From positions 1 through 64,000 of the forward strand of contig PAVO01000007.1 in NCBI GenBank assembly GCA_002713215.1: a DNA stretch of 64,000 nt, written 5' to 3'. Origin of the DNA: Crocinitomicaceae bacterium (GTDB taxonomy: Bacteria > Bacteroidota > Bacteroidia > Flavobacteriales_G > Salibacteraceae). A program made the translations under genes and the position numbers. Of the stretch, positions 1,509 to 44,984 are shown piece after piece. The notes below the pieces were generated by a model. That model was not told the origin of the DNA. It saw only the letters and a list, made by a program, of their open reading frames with translations, and searched no databases. How positions within the stretch are numbered: position 1 is the stretch's first letter; the number at the start of each line of letters is the position of its first letter.

Positions 1509-1545
1509 ACCCCTATAGCAAACATCATGTTCACAGGGGAAACAC

Positions 1546-1901: not shown

Positions 1902-1943
1902 GAACTTATTGAGTTAACGACATATTTCACAGGGGAAACTAGT

Positions 1944-2813: not shown

Positions 2814-2850
2814 GGATACATCAAAAAATGACATAGCACAGGGGAACATT

Positions 2851-3964: not shown

Positions 3965-4004
3965 GTCTATATCGAAATGACATGCCAATCACAGGGGAAA
4001 CAGC

Positions 4005-5464: not shown

Positions 5465-5479
5465 AAAACTTTAAATAAA

Positions 5480-5520
5480 AACAACAAAAGTGTTGTTTTT
5501 ATTATCCCCTGTGTTACTAT
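5480..5520 (+). promoter_or_regulatory. AAC-box promoter for 5563 operon
   Basis: AAC box 5480-5497 (perfect), -35 TTGTTT, 16 bp, -10 TACTAT (5515-5520). The spacer contains CCCCTGTG, and with the CACAGGGG of the leader it forms a spaced inverted repeat. Canonical 27-base leader. Confidence 0.85.
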
Positions 5521-5562
5521 GAACACATAGAGAAATGACATGCCAATCACAGGGGAAACAGC

Positions 5563-5943: not shown

Positions 5944-5979
5944 GCTCACACCCAACATTCACTAACAGGGGAAACATGA

Positions 5980-6647: not shown

Positions 6648-7178
6648 TTATGCCAATCCCAGCTTTTGAAAAGCCTGCGCCATAATACCCTTCGGCTTTG
6701 ACTCTTCAACCTTGGGTCGCTTGCTCACTTCATTAGCGATCTGAATACACGCATCAGCGGCTTTGGCGCACATCTCCACGTCGAACCATGCGAAGTGGCA
6801 TTCAGACTTGGAGATCCCCAATTTTTTGGCCAGTCTCTCATAGGCTTCGTTTCTATCCATGTCACCAGACGCGTAAAGCGGCGTGAAGTAGAACTTTGAA
6901 TCTTTACGCGCTTTGCGCATTTCTTCATTGGCCAGTGTACCCAATGGAATATTGGTAAAGGGATGAAGACCAACGTATGCTCCGCAGTCACCACACAAAT
7001 AAATCCACGGGTACTTGCCATAAGAGCGCCCGTTGTACACTTTGCTGTTTTCTACGATTTCAATCGCTTCTGATGCACAGCAATTACATTTTGTTGGTGC
7101 TGGAAGTGGATTCTTTACCTTCGCTGTCGCGCGTCGGCTCACGTTCCACGGTGTTGCTATTTTCTTTTCTTTAGCCAT
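6648..7178 (-). CDS. Zinc-finger-containing protein (DUF3268-like)
   Basis: 176-residue protein with two CxxC pairs (Cys31/Cys34 and Cys62/Cys65), followed by Gly-Ala-Tyr-Val-Gly-Leu-His and Pro-Leu-Gly-Thr-Leu-Ala, then an Arg-Lys-Ala-Arg segment and a His-Phe-Ala-Trp-Phe motif. This order is typical of the DUF3268 zinc-ribbon family found in phages and plasmids; molecular role unknown. The minus-strand start carries CAGGGGAAGC, so it uses the module's ribosome site. Its promoter shares the AAC box at 7233-7250 with the divergent gene. Confidence 0.8.
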   Translation of the reverse strand: MAKEKKIATPWNVSRRATAKVKNPLPAPTKCNCCASEAIEIVENSKVYNGRSYGKYPWIYLCGDCGAYVGLHPFTNIPLGTLANEEMRKARKDSKFYFTPLYASGDMDRNEAYERLAKKLGISKSECHFAWFDVEMCAKAADACIQIANEVSKRPKVEESKPKGIMAQAFQKLGLA

Positions 7179-7232
7179 GATTGCTTCCCCTGTTTAATCA
7201 ATAAACCCAGTATATAAAAAACTTACCATAAA

Positions 7233-7273: not shown

Positions 7274-7311
7274 GTCTATATTGAAAAAACAGACTCATAC
7301 AGGGGAAACAT

Positions 7312-8853: not shown

Positions 8854-8894
8854 GACTACATCAACTAAAGACATGTATTCACAGGGGAAACAAC

Positions 8895-9421: not shown

Positions 9422-9463
9422 CCCCTGTACGCCCCGCTTATGCAACTCGCTGGCGGGGCACCC
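9422..9463 (+). repeat. CCCCTGT element with GC-rich hairpin
   Basis: CCCCTGT (9422-9428) followed by GCCCCGC (9431-9437) and GCGGGGC (9453-9459), then ACCC. The order CCCCTGT, hairpin, CACCC matches the first unit of the array at 12915-12953. Confidence 0.55.
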
Positions 9464-9879: not shown

Positions 9880-9921
9880 GAATACATAGACAAACGACAT
9901 GCCAATCACAGGGGAAACAGC

Positions 9922-10845: not shown

Positions 10846-10886
10846 GAATACATCAACTAAGCACATGTATTCACAGGGGAAACAAC

Positions 10887-11822: not shown

Positions 11823-11863
11823 AACAACAAAAGTGTTGTTTTGTTCGGTGGTTTTGGTATGAT
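11823..11863 (+). promoter_or_regulatory. AAC-box promoter for 11906 operon
   Basis: AAC box 11823-11840 (perfect), TTGTTT, 16 bp, TGG-TATGAT (11858-11863), canonical 27-base leader. This promoter would also transcribe the stem-loop array at 12915-13206 if no terminator intervenes; I see none. Confidence 0.85.
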
Positions 11864-11905
11864 GAACACATATCGAGATGACATGCCAATCACAGGGGAA
11901 ACAGC

Positions 11906-12181
11906 ATGAAGTTATTAACAAAATTTACAGAACCATCAGTGAACACCATGTTCGCAAGCTTGTTAACTATCGTTACCGCTGGTGGATTATACGCACTGTA
12001 TCTCCGCCTAGAAAATCTGGGCTGGGCTACACTGCAACAAGAGTGGATTACGTACTTGCTCATATACGCTGTAATGGCATCGGTTATTGTGATGTTCTGG
12101 ACTTTCGCAAGCATTATCGAAACCTGCGAACGCCAGGCCGCTAAATTCTACGAAGAATTAGCAGACATTACTCAGCATTAA
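11906..12181 (+). CDS. Small membrane protein, two helices, 91 aa
   Basis: Two predicted membrane helices (about residues 14-33 and 46-69), short termini, a Cys-Glu-Arg-Gln tail. Start set by the canonical leader; an overlapping frame from 11878 is a shadow. First of a three-gene unit in which two membrane proteins flank a soluble one. Confidence 0.85.
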   Translation: MKLLTKFTEPSVNTMFASLLTIVTAGGLYALYLRLENLGWATLQQEWITYLLIYAVMASVIVMFWTFASIIETCERQAAKFYEELADITQH

Positions 12182-12190
12182 GGACCGGTC

Positions 12191-12628
12191 ATGACAGAAG
12201 TAACCAACGTTTATTTTGCAATGGGGGCTATGAGCCACGCTGCACGCGCTCAAATCGCTGTCAAAGCGGCTGAGCTGGCACTACCGGTGTTTGAGAAAGC
12301 GCATCCGGATGACCGCCGAATTTTTAGTGCTGTCGATGCTGCAAAAGCACATCTTGCAGACGAAAAGACTTGGGACATATTTGACCTTGCTCATGCTGAT
12401 GGTCAGGCCCGTACTGCAATCAATGAGATTGCGAGCAAAATGGAAGACTTGAAGGTTAACCATGCCATGTATTCCGCCGTAAACGCTTGTGCTTACATTG
12501 CGGCCGACAACAAAGATGAATTCATGGATGCGGGTTTGGACGCTGTACGCTTCGCCATAGAAGCTGATCCAAGCATTGAGCAGCAGTTGGTAGCGTATAT
12601 CAACGACAATCAAGCTGAGCTTGCGTAG
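12191..12628 (+). CDS. Helical protein resembling Imm-5-like putative immunity proteins
   Basis: 145 residues, all-alpha. The segment Leu-Pro-Val-Phe-Glu-Lys-Ala-His-Pro-Asp-Asp-Arg-Arg (residues 30-42) followed by an Ala-rich helix resembles the signature of the Imm-5-like putative immunity family (LPxFExxxPDDxRP then AIEAA). The match is by eye to a short motif, so immunity is a suggestion only. Starts 9 bases after the preceding stop (GGACCGGTC-ATG). Confidence 0.7.
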   Translation: MTEVTNVYFAMGAMSHAARAQIAVKAAELALPVFEKAHPDDRRIFSAVDAAKAHLADEKTWDIFDLAHADGQARTAINEIASKMEDLKVNHAMYSAVNACAYIAADNKDEFMDAGLDAVRFAIEADPSIEQQLVAYINDNQAELA

Positions 12629-12636
12629 GTCCGGGT

Positions 12637-12909
12637 ATGTTCGAACGAATTAAACACGCATTGTTCTCTGTGGAATCAATGCTGATCATAGCAACATTGA
12701 TTTGTTGTGCCGCTGGCAGTTCAGCAGCGTATTACAACGACCTGTTGTTAGTTGAACTAGGTCAAAAGCCGCATAACTTGGGTATTGTGGCTCACTTGTT
12801 AGGATACTTTTTCGTTGCCTCTATATTTGGCTATGTGTATACCTTAGTAAAACTTTTTGAAGCGGCTATGGAGCCTGTTAAACCTTGGCACAGTCGCGGG
12901 AACGGTTAA
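12637..12909 (+). CDS. Small membrane protein, two helices, 90 aa
   Basis: Two predicted membrane helices (about residues 10-32 and 49-71). The 8-base gap and weak ribosome site suggest coupling with the preceding gene. With 11906 it brackets the Imm-5-like gene, so the three may form one membrane-associated module. The stem-loop array begins a few bases after its stop. Confidence 0.82.
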   Translation: MFERIKHALFSVESMLIIATLICCAAGSSAAYYNDLLLVELGQKPHNLGIVAHLLGYFFVASIFGYVYTLVKLFEAAMEPVKPWHSRGNG

Positions 12910-12914
12910 CCGAA

Positions 12915-13206
12915 CCCCTGTAGCCTTGCTCACTCTGTACGAGCGAGGCACCCCATTAGACTTAGTGGCGTCCCTGTTTAGCTGCTAAGTCGCCCCTTTA
13001 GACTTGATGGCGGGTCCCCTGCCGGCCATTGAGTCACCCATTAGGTTTGACGGCATCCCCTGTATTAGCCGTCGAACCACCCTATTAGACCTGGTGGCAT
13101 CCCCTGTCGCCACCGGGTCAACTTCTTCGGCTTGGCACCGCTCCCCTGTCTGGTGCTGAGCCAACCCTTTTGACTTGGCGCTAGATCCCCTGTCTGGCGC
13201 CGGGTC
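12915..13206 (+). ncRNA. Tandem array of seven stem-loops with CCCCUGU loops
   Basis: Stems: A 12923-12931/12941-12949 (preceded by CCCCTGT at 12915); B 12959-12969/12981-12991; C 13001-13011/13025-13035; D 13044-13054/13068-13078; E 13088-13098/13109-13119; F 13129-13139/13152-13162; G 13172-13182/13196-13206. B-G repeat every 41-44 bases. The stems differ in sequence (for example GACTTAGTGGC, GGTTTGACGGC, GGCTTGGCACC) yet stay fully paired, and each non-Watson-Crick pair is G.U in the + strand transcript, which would be A.C on the other strand. Loops D-G contain TCCCCTGT; B and C contain TCCCTGT and TCCCCTG. This complements ACAGGGGA in the regulated leaders. Linkers resemble ACCCTATTA. RNA structure is well supported; function is not known. 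Confidence 0.75.
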
Positions 13207-13223
13207 ACCCTTAACTGAATTCA

Positions 13224-13266
13224 AACATCATATTTGTTGTTTTTTTGAGAGCTTCCGTGGTACTGT
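13224..13266 (+). promoter_or_regulatory. Degenerate AAC-box promoter for 13312
   Basis: AACATCATATTTGTTGTT (13224-13241), TTGTTT, then TGG-TACTGT (13261-13266). The spacing is about two bases longer than standard and the CACAGGGG leader is missing. Confidence 0.6.
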
Positions 13267-14231: not shown

Positions 14232-15107
14232 CTATTGTTTCGATTTCATTGTTTCGAATGTTTCTTCTGGCAAATTTATGGAAACAACATAACCATCTGA
14301 TTCGAAATCATCAATGCCGCGCTCGTACTTTTCAACACGAACATTTTGAGAAGTGACACCTTGCGTTTTGCGAAGATGTTCTTTAACCCAGTGTAACACG
14401 GGGCGCTTTCGACCAGTTTCAGTTGTGGGACTTTCTCTGAATTTCATAAGGTCAACGATACCCTCACCACTAAGAGCAATCTTCAACCCTTTACCAGTCT
14501 CTTTGTTTGTGAACGTGGCATGAAAAACATCTTTACGTAAAATATCTTCAACCATTGAGCAAAACGCGATTAGTTTATCACCCACGTTCTCCCATGGTTT
14601 ACCATTGTAAAATACAGGAACCGATTTATTTTTATAGGTAACAGCAAGACATTTAACATACTCCCCACTACCGTCGAAACATTGTCTACGGTAATGCCAT
14701 TCGAAAGCGGCATCATGACGGGCAGCACTCACACCTTTCAACCTTTTTAAATCGGTAGGTACCACCTTTATCCATGCTACTGAAAGACCATCTAGCAATG
14801 CACATTCAAAACCATTTCCGATAAGTGTTTTTATATCTGAAACCAAGTACCCAGCATCATCAGAGAACAGTCTTTCTGACGTTTCATCTTTGATGCCTAG
14901 ACCAAAACTAACAAGGAATGGGTGATCTGGCTCGAACGAACGTCTAATTGCTTTGGATGGGTCAGTTTCTTCTATTGACCATGCGCCATTACCGCTCAAA
15001 GCATTTATTCCACTCTCTTTGACTTCGTGTTTATGTTTCATCCCTAAAAACTGATCAACAAAAAAATCAATTCTTTCATTCTTATCATTCTTTTTATCAT
15101 TTGCCAT
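14232..15107 (-). CDS. Hypothetical protein, 291 aa
   Basis: Unrecognised. Lys/Asp-rich N-terminus (first 15 residues), then a globular mixed domain; no membrane segment. GAGG lies shortly before the minus-strand ATG at 15107. Preceded on its own strand by an AAC box (15180-15197). Convergent with 13312. Confidence 0.82.
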   Translation of the reverse strand: MANDKKNDKNERIDFFVDQFLGMKHKHEVKESGINALSGNGAWSIEETDPSKAIRRSFEPDHPFLVSFGLGIKDETSERLFSDDAGYLVSDIKTLIGNGFECALLDGLSVAWIKVVPTDLKRLKGVSAARHDAAFEWHYRRQCFDGSGEYVKCLAVTYKNKSVPVFYNGKPWENVGDKLIAFCSMVEDILRKDVFHATFTNKETGKGLKIALSGEGIVDLMKFRESPTTETGRKRPVLHWVKEHLRKTQGVTSQNVRVEKYERGIDDFESDGYVVSINLPEETFETMKSKQ

Positions 15108-15321: not shown

Positions 15322-15363
15322 GAATACATAGACAAATGACATGCCAATCACAGGGGAAACAGC

Positions 15364-16190: not shown

Positions 16191-16230
16191 GAACCTATCG
16201 AAACAGCATGCAATTCACAGGGGAAACAGC

Positions 16231-17573: not shown

Positions 17574-17615
17574 GAACACATAGACAAACGACATGCCAAT
17601 CACAGGGGAAACAGC

Positions 17616-18458
17616 ATGAACGTATTAGATTTTTTCTTACTACAAATGAGCGACAAAGATAACCAATTAGCTGCGCGCTCTCTTGAAATGAACTTCCGTT
17701 GCCTTACAGGCCCAAAGGGCTTTGATAATGCCATCAAGCGCATTGAACGCGATTTCCCAGGCCGTTTGGCACATGACTGGGTAAAACCACTTCTTGACGC
17801 TATTCGTCCGTTCTACGTACCTTACGACGATGACGACATGGATGAGTTGCTTGAACACGAAAATCCACAAGTTCGCGAAGCGGCAATGCAGGTGAAAATT
17901 AATAACGCCCGTGCTGATGACGATTTCGTCAACCCGTTAAACGCATTCCTTGAAGCAATGATGAAAAAGCTGAACGGTGGACGCGCATTCTTTGTCGGCA
18001 AAAATTTCAACTTAGATAACTTCACGACTGAAGAATTGGCGTTACCTTACATGCAGTGGATCACGTTATTCGCCAACCGTTACAACCAACTTAAAGCCGA
18101 AGGTTACAACAAGAAGATCATGCGTCTGTGCCGCATTCACCCTTGCGAGAACATCTCTGACGAGTTTGCAAGTGAGCTGGCGCAAATGTTTGAAGATGAC
18201 GACTGGTTTATTGGTATGGACTTCAACCAGTTCGTTAACTGGTACGTAAAGTCACGCGCTCACTTCACTGTTGAAAACGAAACACTAGAACCAGAAATGG
18301 CTGAGCGTATGACCAAGACGTTAAACGTATGGCACGAAGGTAAAGGGAAGAAGCTAAGTGACCACCTTTACTGGTTAAGCAGAAACTACGAGTTTCACCC
18401 AGTGCATAAACCTTATTTATCCAAATTCATCGCTGAGACGTTGAACATCAGCGAGTAA
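17616..18458 (+). CDS. Hypothetical protein, 280 aa
   Basis: Unrecognised; helical, with an acidic patch at residues 70-80 (Asp-Asp-Asp-Asp-Met-Asp-Glu) and many Trp/Phe/Tyr residues later. No signal or membrane segment. Start set by the canonical leader. A CCCCCTGT hairpin begins 4 bases past its stop. Confidence 0.85.
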   Translation: MNVLDFFLLQMSDKDNQLAARSLEMNFRCLTGPKGFDNAIKRIERDFPGRLAHDWVKPLLDAIRPFYVPYDDDDMDELLEHENPQVREAAMQVKINNARADDDFVNPLNAFLEAMMKKLNGGRAFFVGKNFNLDNFTTEELALPYMQWITLFANRYNQLKAEGYNKKIMRLCRIHPCENISDEFASELAQMFEDDDWFIGMDFNQFVNWYVKSRAHFTVENETLEPEMAERMTKTLNVWHEGKGKKLSDHLYWLSRNYEFHPVHKPYLSKFIAETLNISE

Positions 18459-18461
18459 TCT

Positions 18462-18498
18462 GATGGCCGGTGGCATCCCCCTGTCGCTACCGGCTATC
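18462..18498 (+). repeat. Dispersed CCCCTGT stem-loop
   Basis: GATGGCCGGTGGC (18462-18474), loop ATCCCCCTGTC, GCTACCGGCTATC (18486-18498): 13 pairs with two G.U wobbles, followed by ACCCTAT. Same plan as units B-G of the 12915-13206 array, here alone in a 3' region. Confidence 0.7.
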
Positions 18499-18524
18499 AC
18501 CCTATACCCAAAGGACCAATATAG

Positions 18525-18707: not shown

Positions 18708-18746
18708 AACTACATCGAAACAACATGCATTCACAGGGGAAACAGC

Positions 18747-20103: not shown

Positions 20104-20143
20104 GTCTATATTGAAATGACATGCCAATCACAGGGGAAACAGC

Positions 20144-20461: not shown

Positions 20462-20492
20462 TTTTAACCATGCCAATCACAGGGGAAACAGC

Positions 20493-21033: not shown

Positions 21034-21073
21034 GTCTATATCGAAATGACATGCCAATCACAGGGGAAACAGC

Positions 21074-21617: not shown

Positions 21618-21860
21618 ATGACTGAAGCACAAAAGCTCGTTGAGCAAATCAAACAAACCAACATGGCTGATCTCATCAAATCGATGGATGCTGACACACG
21701 CACCGCTCTCGTTGCTGAAATGGCCTCTCAGGACGTTTTAACCGTCGATGCTGATGAGTTTACCGATGAGGTGACCATGGTCTCTGACGTGTTCTCACGC
21801 AGCCAGGGATGCCCCGATACGCCGTATGAAACGGTTGTCACTGTCACTATTTATCGATAA
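21618..21860 (+). CDS. Hypothetical acidic protein, 80 aa
   Basis: Unrecognised. The frame is open from 21402, antiparallel in content to gene 21074, but ATG 21618 has CCGGAG 8 bases upstream and is the real start. Helical, acidic, ending in a short beta-like segment. Confidence 0.78.
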   Translation: MTEAQKLVEQIKQTNMADLIKSMDADTRTALVAEMASQDVLTVDADEFTDEVTMVSDVFSRSQGCPDTPYETVVTVTIYR

Positions 21861-21870
21861 GGCCAAGGTA

Positions 21871-22215
21871 ATGCCAAAAACAAACGTCCCAGACACCCTT
21901 TACGCCGTTACTGATCACCATGTGATCCTAAACCTCACTGTAAAGGACGTAACGCCCCGTGGTGAGTTCATTCAGGCAAAAACTGAACTGGCACCAGGTA
22001 GCGACACTGATTACGGCCAAGGCCACCACGAAAGCTATTTTAAAACGCTATACTTCAACCTTGACGGCACGCTGCATATGAAACATTCAACGGTGTTCAC
22101 TGAATTTGATGCCGCTAAACAGTACGCCATTAAGAACGCACAAGATGAAATCGAACGCGAAGAAAGTCGCATAGCGCGATTAAAGAGTAAACTGGCGCTA
22201 CTTGAAGCCAGCTAA
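21871..22215 (+). CDS. Hypothetical protein with C-terminal coiled coil, 114 aa
   Basis: Unrecognised; beta-rich first 75 residues, then a charged heptad-like helix (Glu-Ile-Glu-Arg-Glu-Glu-Ser-Arg...Lys-Leu-Ala-Leu-Leu-Glu). AAGG upstream of ATG 21871; an in-frame start at 21826 would overlap the previous gene. Confidence 0.8.
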   Translation: MPKTNVPDTLYAVTDHHVILNLTVKDVTPRGEFIQAKTELAPGSDTDYGQGHHESYFKTLYFNLDGTLHMKHSTVFTEFDAAKQYAIKNAQDEIEREESRIARLKSKLALLEAS

Positions 22216-22234: not shown

Positions 22235-22275
22235 AACTCAGCGCCGTATGTTAACCCCTGTATCGGCGTTGAGTT
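22235..22275 (+). repeat. Dispersed CCCCTGT stem-loop joined to the upstream motif
   Basis: AACTCAGCGCCG (22235-22246), 17-nt loop containing CCCCTGT (22255-22261), CGGCGTTGAGTT (22264-22275): 12 pairs with one G.U. The right arm runs into TTGAGTTATTTCAA, so the hairpin and the motif before the next AAC box overlap. Confidence 0.65.
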
Positions 22276-22338: not shown

Positions 22339-22377
22339 GTCCATATCGAAATGACATGCCAACACAGGGGAAACAAT

Positions 22378-27517: not shown

Positions 27518-28123
27518 TTAGGCTTCGATCAGTTCATCCAAGCTCATAAGCATACATTCACCAAAGTATTCATTGAGTCGTGCAAGCTCAGGGTATCTTT
27601 CTGCGTAATCAAGGTAAGCGGATTCACACTTCTTAACCGCCACTTTGAACTCCAATACGTTACCCATAGCGTACTCACGTTTGGCCTTGTTATAAGCAAC
27701 GTACACATCAGCCGCTTTCACCAACTCAGACTCATAGGTCTTTTCATGGCAGATTGCTTCAATCTCTTTACGCATATACTCAGGCATTTTGCTGAATAGC
27801 AGCTTTTCGTTTTCTGCTTCAAGGCGCTTCCACGTCTCGTAAAACTCTTCTGAACTTCTCTTAATTGGGCTGGGGAGGTCTGTAGTCAAAACTTCCTCAC
27901 CATCATGCGCGATTGCGTATGACAGCATCTTAGCCATATCAATGTCATGGTCGAATTCATGCTTTGAGATAAGCCCCAGCAACAAGCTGGTTAATGTCAC
28001 TTCTGCTGAGTGTTCAAGCACGTTTTCTTGCTCGAATAATCCCATGCGATTCCAACGTGGCAATAGACGTTGACGGAACATTAAAGCTAAGAAAGCGTAT
28101 TGTTTTGCGGTATCTGAAATCAT
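27518..28123 (-). CDS. yfbR: YfbR-like HD-domain 5'-deoxynucleotidase
   Basis: 201 residues, the usual length of YfbR. Glu-Asn-Val-Leu-Glu-His38-Ser, His73-Asp74-Gly-Glu-Glu-Val-Leu-Thr-Thr-Asp-Leu-Pro-Ser-Pro-Ile-Lys, and a late Asp139 reproduce the HD-family metal ligands and the Thr/Ser-Asp-Leu-Pro-x-Pro-Ile/Val-Lys signature. The family removes phosphate from dNMPs, so it could alter the nucleotide pool. Its mRNA uses the module leader (CAGGGGAAAC before the minus-strand ATG), and an AAC box lies upstream at 28178-28195. Confidence 0.85.
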   Translation of the reverse strand: MISDTAKQYAFLALMFRQRLLPRWNRMGLFEQENVLEHSAEVTLTSLLLGLISKHEFDHDIDMAKMLSYAIAHDGEEVLTTDLPSPIKRSSEEFYETWKRLEAENEKLLFSKMPEYMRKEIEAICHEKTYESELVKAADVYVAYNKAKREYAMGNVLEFKVAVKKCESAYLDYAERYPELARLNEYFGECMLMSLDELIEA

Positions 28124-28152
28124 AGTTTGTTTCCCCTGTTTTCTATGACTTC

Positions 28153-30148: not shown

Positions 30149-30185
30149 GAACTTACTGAAAACAAAGGCTATACAGGGGAAACTT

Positions 30186-32624: not shown

Positions 32625-32664
32625 AACTGCATTGAAGAATTCAGCAATATACAGGGGAAACAAT

Positions 32665-35000: not shown

Positions 35001-35042
35001 GAACATATTGAAAATGACATATCATTCACAGGGGAACACGAT

Positions 35043-35924: not shown

Positions 35925-35962
35925 AACCACACTTAAACGAGATTTCACACAGGGGAAACAAC

Positions 35963-36645: not shown

Positions 36646-36686
36646 GTTACATATCGAAACGACATGCCAATCACAGGGGAAACAGC

Positions 36687-37122: not shown

Positions 37123-37165
37123 GGTTACATATCGAAAAGACATGCAAATCACAGGGGGAAACAAC

Positions 37166-37621: not shown

Positions 37622-37661
37622 GATTATATCGAAACGACATGCCAATCACAGGGGAAACAGC

Positions 37662-38251: not shown

Positions 38252-38281
38252 CCAACACTATACAAGCACAGGGGAAACAAA

Positions 38282-38773: not shown

Positions 38774-38815
38774 GGTTACATATCGAAATGACATGCCAAT
38801 CACAGGGGAAACAGC

Positions 38816-44045: not shown

Positions 44046-44085
44046 AAACCTACTGAAGCAATGATGATTCACAGGGGAAACAATC

Positions 44086-44767: not shown

Positions 44768-44800
44768 TGAGAGGCCCCGTCCCCTGCGGGTGTCCTCTCA
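44768..44800 (+). repeat. Dispersed CCCCTG stem-loop
   Basis: TGAGAGG (44768-44774), inner stem CCCG, loop TCCCCTG, CGGG, then CCTCTCA (44794-44800), followed by ACCCTATTTT. Same loop and 3' flank as the array at 12915-13206. Confidence 0.65.
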
Positions 44801-44945: not shown

Positions 44946-44984
44946 ATAACCACTGAAACGTTGTTACACACAGGGGAAACATAC

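Follow-up and report, generated by a model that had tools for sequence, protein, structure and literature searches.

Loops of a seven-hairpin array and of dispersed 3' hairpins complement a repeated ribosome-binding leader on a putative conjugative plasmid

We find that a tandem array of seven hairpins carries loops complementary to the Shine-Dalgarno stretch of a leader repeated before some 70 genes, that the leader is itself a hairpin, and that single hairpins with the same loop core occur elsewhere on the same contigs, mostly behind stop codons. The window, meaning the whole stretch of 64,000 nucleotides analysed here, is the first 64 kb of C7, a 372-kb contig in a 5.03-Mb assembly of 56 contigs. 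C7 looks like a large conjugative megaplasmid because a T4SS-type region, with a TraI-type T4SS protein and a T2SSE ATPase, starts at about 52 kb. The same leader module is found on C30 (156 kb) and on C4 (197 kb; four leaders); the three contigs are separate in the assembly and may or may not form a single replicon. We judge it somewhat better than an even bet that the plasmid encodes a family of 3'-end hairpins acting on the leader loops by base-pairing, with the array as its multivalent form. If this is true, one RNA code of 6-8 bases in about 70 start-codon hairpins, answered by 3' hairpins, would make up a compact translational regulon. Plasmids need hundreds of cargo genes to be quiet yet inducible, and a limited literature search found no description of a comparable translational regulon on plasmids.

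The sequence-only reading had placed seven hairpins downstream of the gene at 12637, and the fold of the + strand finds all of them at 12923-13206 (Table 1). Their loops were said to be identical in D-G, with near copies in B and C, and this is borne out: hairpins D-G present UCCCCUGU, complementary to the leader over 8 bases, C presents UCCCCUGC with 7, and B has GUCCCUGU, the complement of ACAGGG (6 plus bases). The loop of hairpin A offers just CUCUGU, and a linear CCCCTGTA stands ahead of it. A U.G wobble had been claimed at the fifth pair of nearly every unit; as read from the sequence, it is there in A and in C-G, and the exception is B, which has U-A.

That reading had further proposed that the non-Watson-Crick pairs are all G.U on the + strand, pointing to selection on a structured + strand RNA. 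Indeed, when we collected uninterrupted stems of at least 10 pairs centred on CCCCTG, allowing Watson-Crick and G.U pairs yielded 16 stems with 31 wobbles (three of these stems are leaders read on the reverse strand), while allowing Watson-Crick and A.C pairs yielded none. The region 12896-13260 also folds better as + strand (-159.9 kcal/mol) than as - strand (-127.0 kcal/mol), a gap of 33 kcal/mol. Selection has therefore acted on the coding strand. On the ground of the G.U/A.C asymmetry we set aside a reading of the hairpins as single-stranded-DNA recombination sites behind genes, like integron attC, which we hold to be extremely improbable; they are stop-proximal, imperfect and repeated beside small variable genes, as such sites might be, but pairing is G.U-only on the coding strand, no attC core was seen by eye, and the stems of the leaders track the coding sequence.

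The array loops had been said to match the ribosome-binding leaders of about 30 genes, and the window holds 31 exact ACAGGGGA leaders. In total, ACAGGGGA occurs 36 times against 1.07 expected: 31 copies lie shortly before a start codon, four are the array itself and one is in a promoter. A 32nd leader has the variant ACAGGGGGA. Taking C7, C30 and C4 together, we count 71 leaders ahead of ORFs with 45 codons or more. Searching for the motif does not by itself account for it: a profile of the promoter regions upstream of leaders, built without the Shine-Dalgarno stretch, recovers largely the same set of genes, and about ten others whose near variants retain GGGGAAACA or nearly so. We used this profile in place of a strict promoter regular expression, which returned only four sites.

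The leader forms a hairpin with ACAGGGGA in its loop: the bases 5' of ACAGGGGA make up one arm and pair with an arm that includes the AUG. When arms were exchanged among 57 distinct leaders, native arms paired at -3.70 kcal/mol compared to about -1.7 kcal/mol for swapped ones (z = -8.7; 0 of 20,000 permutations). The z value was -8.5 with Watson-Crick and G.U pairs, -8.2 with Watson-Crick pairs and -6.8 with Watson-Crick and A.C pairs; the sense-strand pairing rule suits the arms a little better. Unconstrained folding of these short leaders leaves the Shine-Dalgarno core unpaired in just 21 of 57, which suggests that their structure may be dynamic; opening it costs 2.2 kcal/mol on average and up to 9.7 kcal/mol. 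Many leader genes sit in compact modules, as at 5474-5512, where a terminator, AACAACAAAAGTGTTGTTTTT, overlaps the next promoter; in such modules the -35-like TTGTTT of the next promoter sits inside the terminator tail. On C30, a plasmid-borne DnaN-like beta clamp (140205-141326) has a regulon-type promoter and a CTGGGGAAACA leader.

About ten more sites with CCCCUG-loop hairpins lie outside the array on C7 and C30. CCCCUG and the leader core CAGGGG are exactly complementary. Most of these hairpins are on the coding strand and start 2-17 nt past a stop codon; the location of the array at the 3' end of a gene, recognized earlier, is confirmed and extends to stop-proximal hairpins generally. The match between loop and leader, which is far above chance, is no accident of one array, because it recurs at these sites with unrelated stems. 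Stems under UCCCCUG(U) loops measure 11-16 bp, and many of the CCCCUG-loop hairpins are followed by linkers that read like ACCCTATT. When strong coding-strand hairpins were listed without bias, the top loop hexamer on C30 was CCCCTG (8 of 90 loops), and on C7 1-45.5 kb CCCCTG or CCCTGT (6 of 33 loops) ranked joint first.

These hairpins covary, in keeping with the earlier statement that stems vary while pairing is kept. Among 12 UCCCCUG hairpins from C7 and C30, both sides have changed at 13 of 14 pairs, and an invariant U.G closes the CCCCU loop. The covariation score is 0.78, compared to 0.25 for shuffled and at most 0.29 for slid alignments; five of the 12 are array units and seven have other stems, and covariation events are fewer than cells because the array units may be linked by duplication. 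A covariance model built from the hairpins gave 15 matches in the 5.03 Mb. Of these, 14 fall on C30 or in the first 45 kb of C7; the fifteenth is weak (E 0.26) and lies on neither contig. These hairpins and the leaders share C7 and C30 and, the leaders of C4 aside, neither was seen elsewhere among the sequences searched. The dispersed 3' hairpins, the leader hairpin and the second plasmid-like contig are additions to the sequence-only reading, whose interpretation is partly supported overall.

Stop-proximal hairpins can protect mRNA ends, and the hairpins at 14554 and 28926 of C30 look like terminators with a CCCCUG loop. We nevertheless find it quite doubtful that the family consists of ordinary 3'-end elements for stability, processing or termination whose match to the leader is incidental: the loop hexamer ranks first or joint first in the regulon regions, is exactly complementary to the leader core and sits on unrelated stems, and the recurrent AT-rich terminators here carry an AAAG loop.

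The simplest account is that hairpin loop and ribosome would compete for the leader loop. The 3' hairpins would present UCCCCUG(U) to a CAGGGG(A) loop at the translation start of about 70 genes on the same contigs; this loop would hold the Shine-Dalgarno stretch, and the AUG would fall within the 3' arm. A GC-rich loop-loop contact of 6-8 bp would cover the Shine-Dalgarno stretch and exclude ribosomes, so that repression would be a likelier outcome than activation and many unrelated small plasmid genes could be damped jointly. The predicted duplex has an energy of -13.6 kcal/mol for 8 bp and -10.0 kcal/mol for 6 bp; once the cost of opening each partner is subtracted, about -6 to -11 kcal/mol remains for 6-8 bp. 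As in base-pairing RNAs, at least 6 contiguous bases complement the target Shine-Dalgarno stretch and are predicted to be accessible on both sides. Among known plasmid antisense RNAs, 6-7 GC-rich pairs are a usual size for a loop-loop contact. ColE1 RNAI, CopA and the IncI Inc RNA all use short GC-rich loop-loop recognition on plasmids; these are cis-encoded with one replication target, whereas the hairpins here match many genes.

No promoter of its own was found ahead of the array, and the terminator behind it is weak; a terminator scan did not score the hairpin at 13222-13246. The array would probably be transcribed from the putative promoter at 11855 as the 3' end of the mRNA of the 11906-12909 operon, with the transcript ending at the T-run near 13246, and it may be active inside the operon mRNA or following cleavage in the linkers. 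At window position 9422, a linear CCCCTGTA immediately follows a stop codon, like the copy at 12915, and no hairpin is obvious there.

Nearly all of the hairpins are in operons with a regulon-type promoter, and most of these operons, that of the array included, have a leader. Such an arrangement would fit action in cis, in which a 3' or intercistronic loop kisses the leader loop at the 5' end of its own mRNA and the resulting ring of 1-2 kb reports completeness or sets translation; terminating ribosomes would sweep the stop-proximal position. We think this unlikely, however, given that the operon of the + strand hairpin at 23317 of C30 has no CAGGGG anywhere, that hairpins occur in no more than about a dozen of the roughly 70 operons with a leader, and that one leader needs fewer than seven. 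The 23317 operon and the valency of the array therefore favor action in trans. Base-pairing in trans could, more tentatively, reach further, and we see some possibility of a megaplasmid-wide network from mRNA to mRNA: every regulon message would have the common 5' loop and a subset the complementary 3' loop, messages would regulate one another with the array as hub, and the whole might be gated by an extrachromosomal CsrA in a host lineage otherwise lacking this protein.

The sole csrA of the genome lies on C4 (90768-90974, - strand), a contig with four leaders; CsrA was absent from each of 34 other genomes in its family, and a related Alteromonas mediterranea megaplasmid has csrA. The plasmid CsrA RsmQ binds GGA at hairpin tops (PMC9928087). 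Because the leader loop contains a GGA that overlaps the Shine-Dalgarno stretch (ACAGGGGA), CsrA may concern the leader, and the C4 protein could plausibly be a partner of the hairpins or else a rival explanation for the leaders. It could be that the leaders are targets of plasmid-borne CsrA and that UCCCCUG hairpins mask their GGA sites, modulating its access. This seems improbable to us; the leader reads GGGGA and lacks the full AnGGA core, and C4 may belong to a different replicon. CsrA does not explain the array, and the array is not a CsrB-type decoy, because its loops have no GGA on the coding strand. The array does resemble CsrB/RsmZ and the RsmQ system in that hairpins are arrayed with one loop motif and CsrA is encoded on a leader-bearing contig, but on the selected strand its loops carry the complement of the GGA motif in place of the motif. 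A transcript of the - strand would have ACAGGGGA in its loops, offer six GGA loops and might act as a CsrB/RsmZ-like decoy for the CsrA of C4. We give almost no credence to this reading and set it aside on the G.U/A.C asymmetry: A.C mismatches break the - strand stems, the fold is poorer, and it is on the opposite strand that hairpins follow stop codons.

The closest likeness to the array is in the cuckoo RNAs, CcsR1-4 of Rhodobacter and SmelA075/SmelA099 of Sinorhizobium, which are tandem hairpins with variable stems, a constant anti-Shine-Dalgarno loop and a varying number of units; the Rhodobacter CcsR RNAs lie 3' of a small-protein gene, have a terminator at the end and have been suggested to occlude several ribosome-binding sites (PMC3927594, PMC10253847). 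The array shares with them a tandem arrangement of at least two hairpins in which the stems vary and the loop is constant. In contrast, its loops are UCCCCUG(U) and not the cuckoo motif CCUCCUCCC (PMC3927594), and no DUF1127 small-protein gene precedes it (12637-12909 has no Pfam match); it is therefore not a member of that group, and by analogy appears to work like those RNAs, as a variety of anti-Shine-Dalgarno hairpin RNA. Cuckoo/CcsR RNAs are processed sRNAs under a stress sigma factor. They are encoded on an alphaproteobacterial chromosome, whereas the array is on a probable conjugative plasmid. New here are the common target, a dedicated start-codon hairpin repeated at about 70 genes, and the single copies behind stop codons. 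UCCC loops also contact Shine-Dalgarno stretches in S. aureus RNAIII, via loop-loop contact, and in Listeria LhrC; these are chromosomal sRNAs with diverse targets, while the targets here share one sequence and structure.

Table 1 Features of the array operon, CCCCUG-loop hairpins and leaders (window positions unless C30 is named).
Feature	Position	Strand	Observation
Extended -10-like element TGGTATGATG, putative promoter of array operon	11855-11864	+	profile match
Leader hairpin of array operon	11882-11908	+	ACAGGGGA (11892-11899) in loop, AUG in 3' arm
First gene of array operon, ORF 91 aa	11906-12181	+	ORF list
Second gene, ORF 145 aa	12191-12628	+	weak Imm5-like match, below cut-off
Third gene, ORF 90 aa	12637-12909	+	array starts directly behind its stop
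Linear CCCCTGTA	12915-12922	+	directly 3' of stop codon, ahead of hairpin A
Hairpin A, loop ACUCUGUAC	12923-12949	+	fold
Hairpin B, loop GUCCCUGUUUA	12959-12991	+	fold
Hairpin C, UCCCCUGC	13001-13035	+	fold, covariance-model search
Hairpin D, UCCCCUGU	13044-13078	+	fold, covariance-model search
Hairpin E, UCCCCUGU	13088-13119	+	fold, covariance-model search
Hairpin F, UCCCCUGU	13129-13162	+	fold, covariance-model search
Hairpin G, UCCCCUGU	13172-13206	+	fold, covariance-model search
Weak hairpin then T7, terminator-like	13222-13246	+	fold and sequence; probable transcript end
Single hairpin, loop CCCCCUGU	18461-18499	+	2 nt past stop of 17616-18458
Single 3' hairpin, loop ACCCCUGU	22235-22275	+	behind gene 21826-22215
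Single hairpin, loop UCCCCUGC	44768-44800	+	then ACCCTATT
C30 single CCCCUG-loop hairpins	38746, 28926, 16436, 14554, 11912, 11330	-	
C30 two-unit array	26953/26917	-	strong terminator-like hairpin behind
C30 single CCCCUG-loop hairpin	23317	+	
Leader ACAGGGGA	1533-1540	+	
Leader ACAGGGGA	1929-1936	+	8-bp leader stem with AUG
Leader ACAGGGGA	2838-2845	+	stem GACATA/TATGTC
Leader ACAGGGGA	3991-3998	+	
Leader ACAGGGGA	5549-5556	+	
Leader ACAGGGGA	5965-5972	+	stem ACATTCA/TGAATGT
Leader ACAGGGGA of gene 6648-7178 (-)	7186-7193	-	
Leader ACAGGGGA	7299-7306	+	
Leader ACAGGGGA	8881-8888	+	
Leader ACAGGGGA	9908-9915	+	
Leader ACAGGGGA	10873-10880	+	
Leader ACAGGGGA	15350-15357	+	
Leader ACAGGGGA	16217-16224	+	
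Leader ACAGGGGA	17602-17609	+	18461 hairpin behind its gene
Leader ACAGGGGA	18733-18740	+	
Leader ACAGGGGA	20130-20137	+	
Leader ACAGGGGA	20479-20486	+	
Leader ACAGGGGA	21060-21067	+	
Leader ACAGGGGA	22364-22371	+	
Leader ACAGGGGA of gene 27518-28123 (-)	28132-28139	-	11-bp leader stem
Leader ACAGGGGA	30173-30180	+	
Leader ACAGGGGA	32651-32658	+	stem TCAGC/GCTGA
Leader ACAGGGGA	35028-35035	+	stem CATATC/GATATG
Leader ACAGGGGA	35949-35956	+	stem GATTTCA/TGAAATC
Leader ACAGGGGA	36673-36680	+	
Variant leader ACAGGGGGA	37151-37159	+	
Leader ACAGGGGA	37648-37655	+	
Leader ACAGGGGA	38268-38275	+	
Leader ACAGGGGA	38802-38809	+	
Leader ACAGGGGA	44071-44078	+	stem ATGATT/AATCAT
Leader ACAGGGGA	44970-44977	+	

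We also searched beyond this genome. At E 0.01 the hairpin covariance model had no match in 148 other genomes of the class, no Rfam family scored above its gathering score in the window or in L008/L009, and no DNA similarity to the array was found in plasmids and phages. Across the family, the order and 395 genomes of the class, the leader pattern matched more than once in this genome only; it had no match in a genome-contig collection and a single match in each of four contigs of a viral-contig collection, and the one of these four inspected, L033, has no second leader. A search of the genome-contig collection with a T4SS-region protein returned no relatives. This genome has no ProQ/FinO-type chaperone.

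Among related plasmids, the nearest one found was Alteromonas mediterranea pAMCP48-600 (47% in two proteins), whose own repeated leader, TTCACACACACGAG, differs from the one here. The 234 kb read contain no clear antisense copy of TTCACACACACGAG, and the searches made found no related plasmid in which a changed leader goes with a matching changed loop. About 1.7 kb of pAMCP48-600 without annotated genes (L059:11880-12350) holds a hairpin pair in three copies, with no Rfam match in the region; the pairs are followed by TTCACACGAGATATTACTC-like sequence, which resembles the plasmid's own leader in sense orientation. Lastly, positions 1-140 of the window are a contig-end repeat. Many plasmids of Vibrio and Alteromonas carry stretches 97-100% identical to it, and the start of C30 shares part of it.
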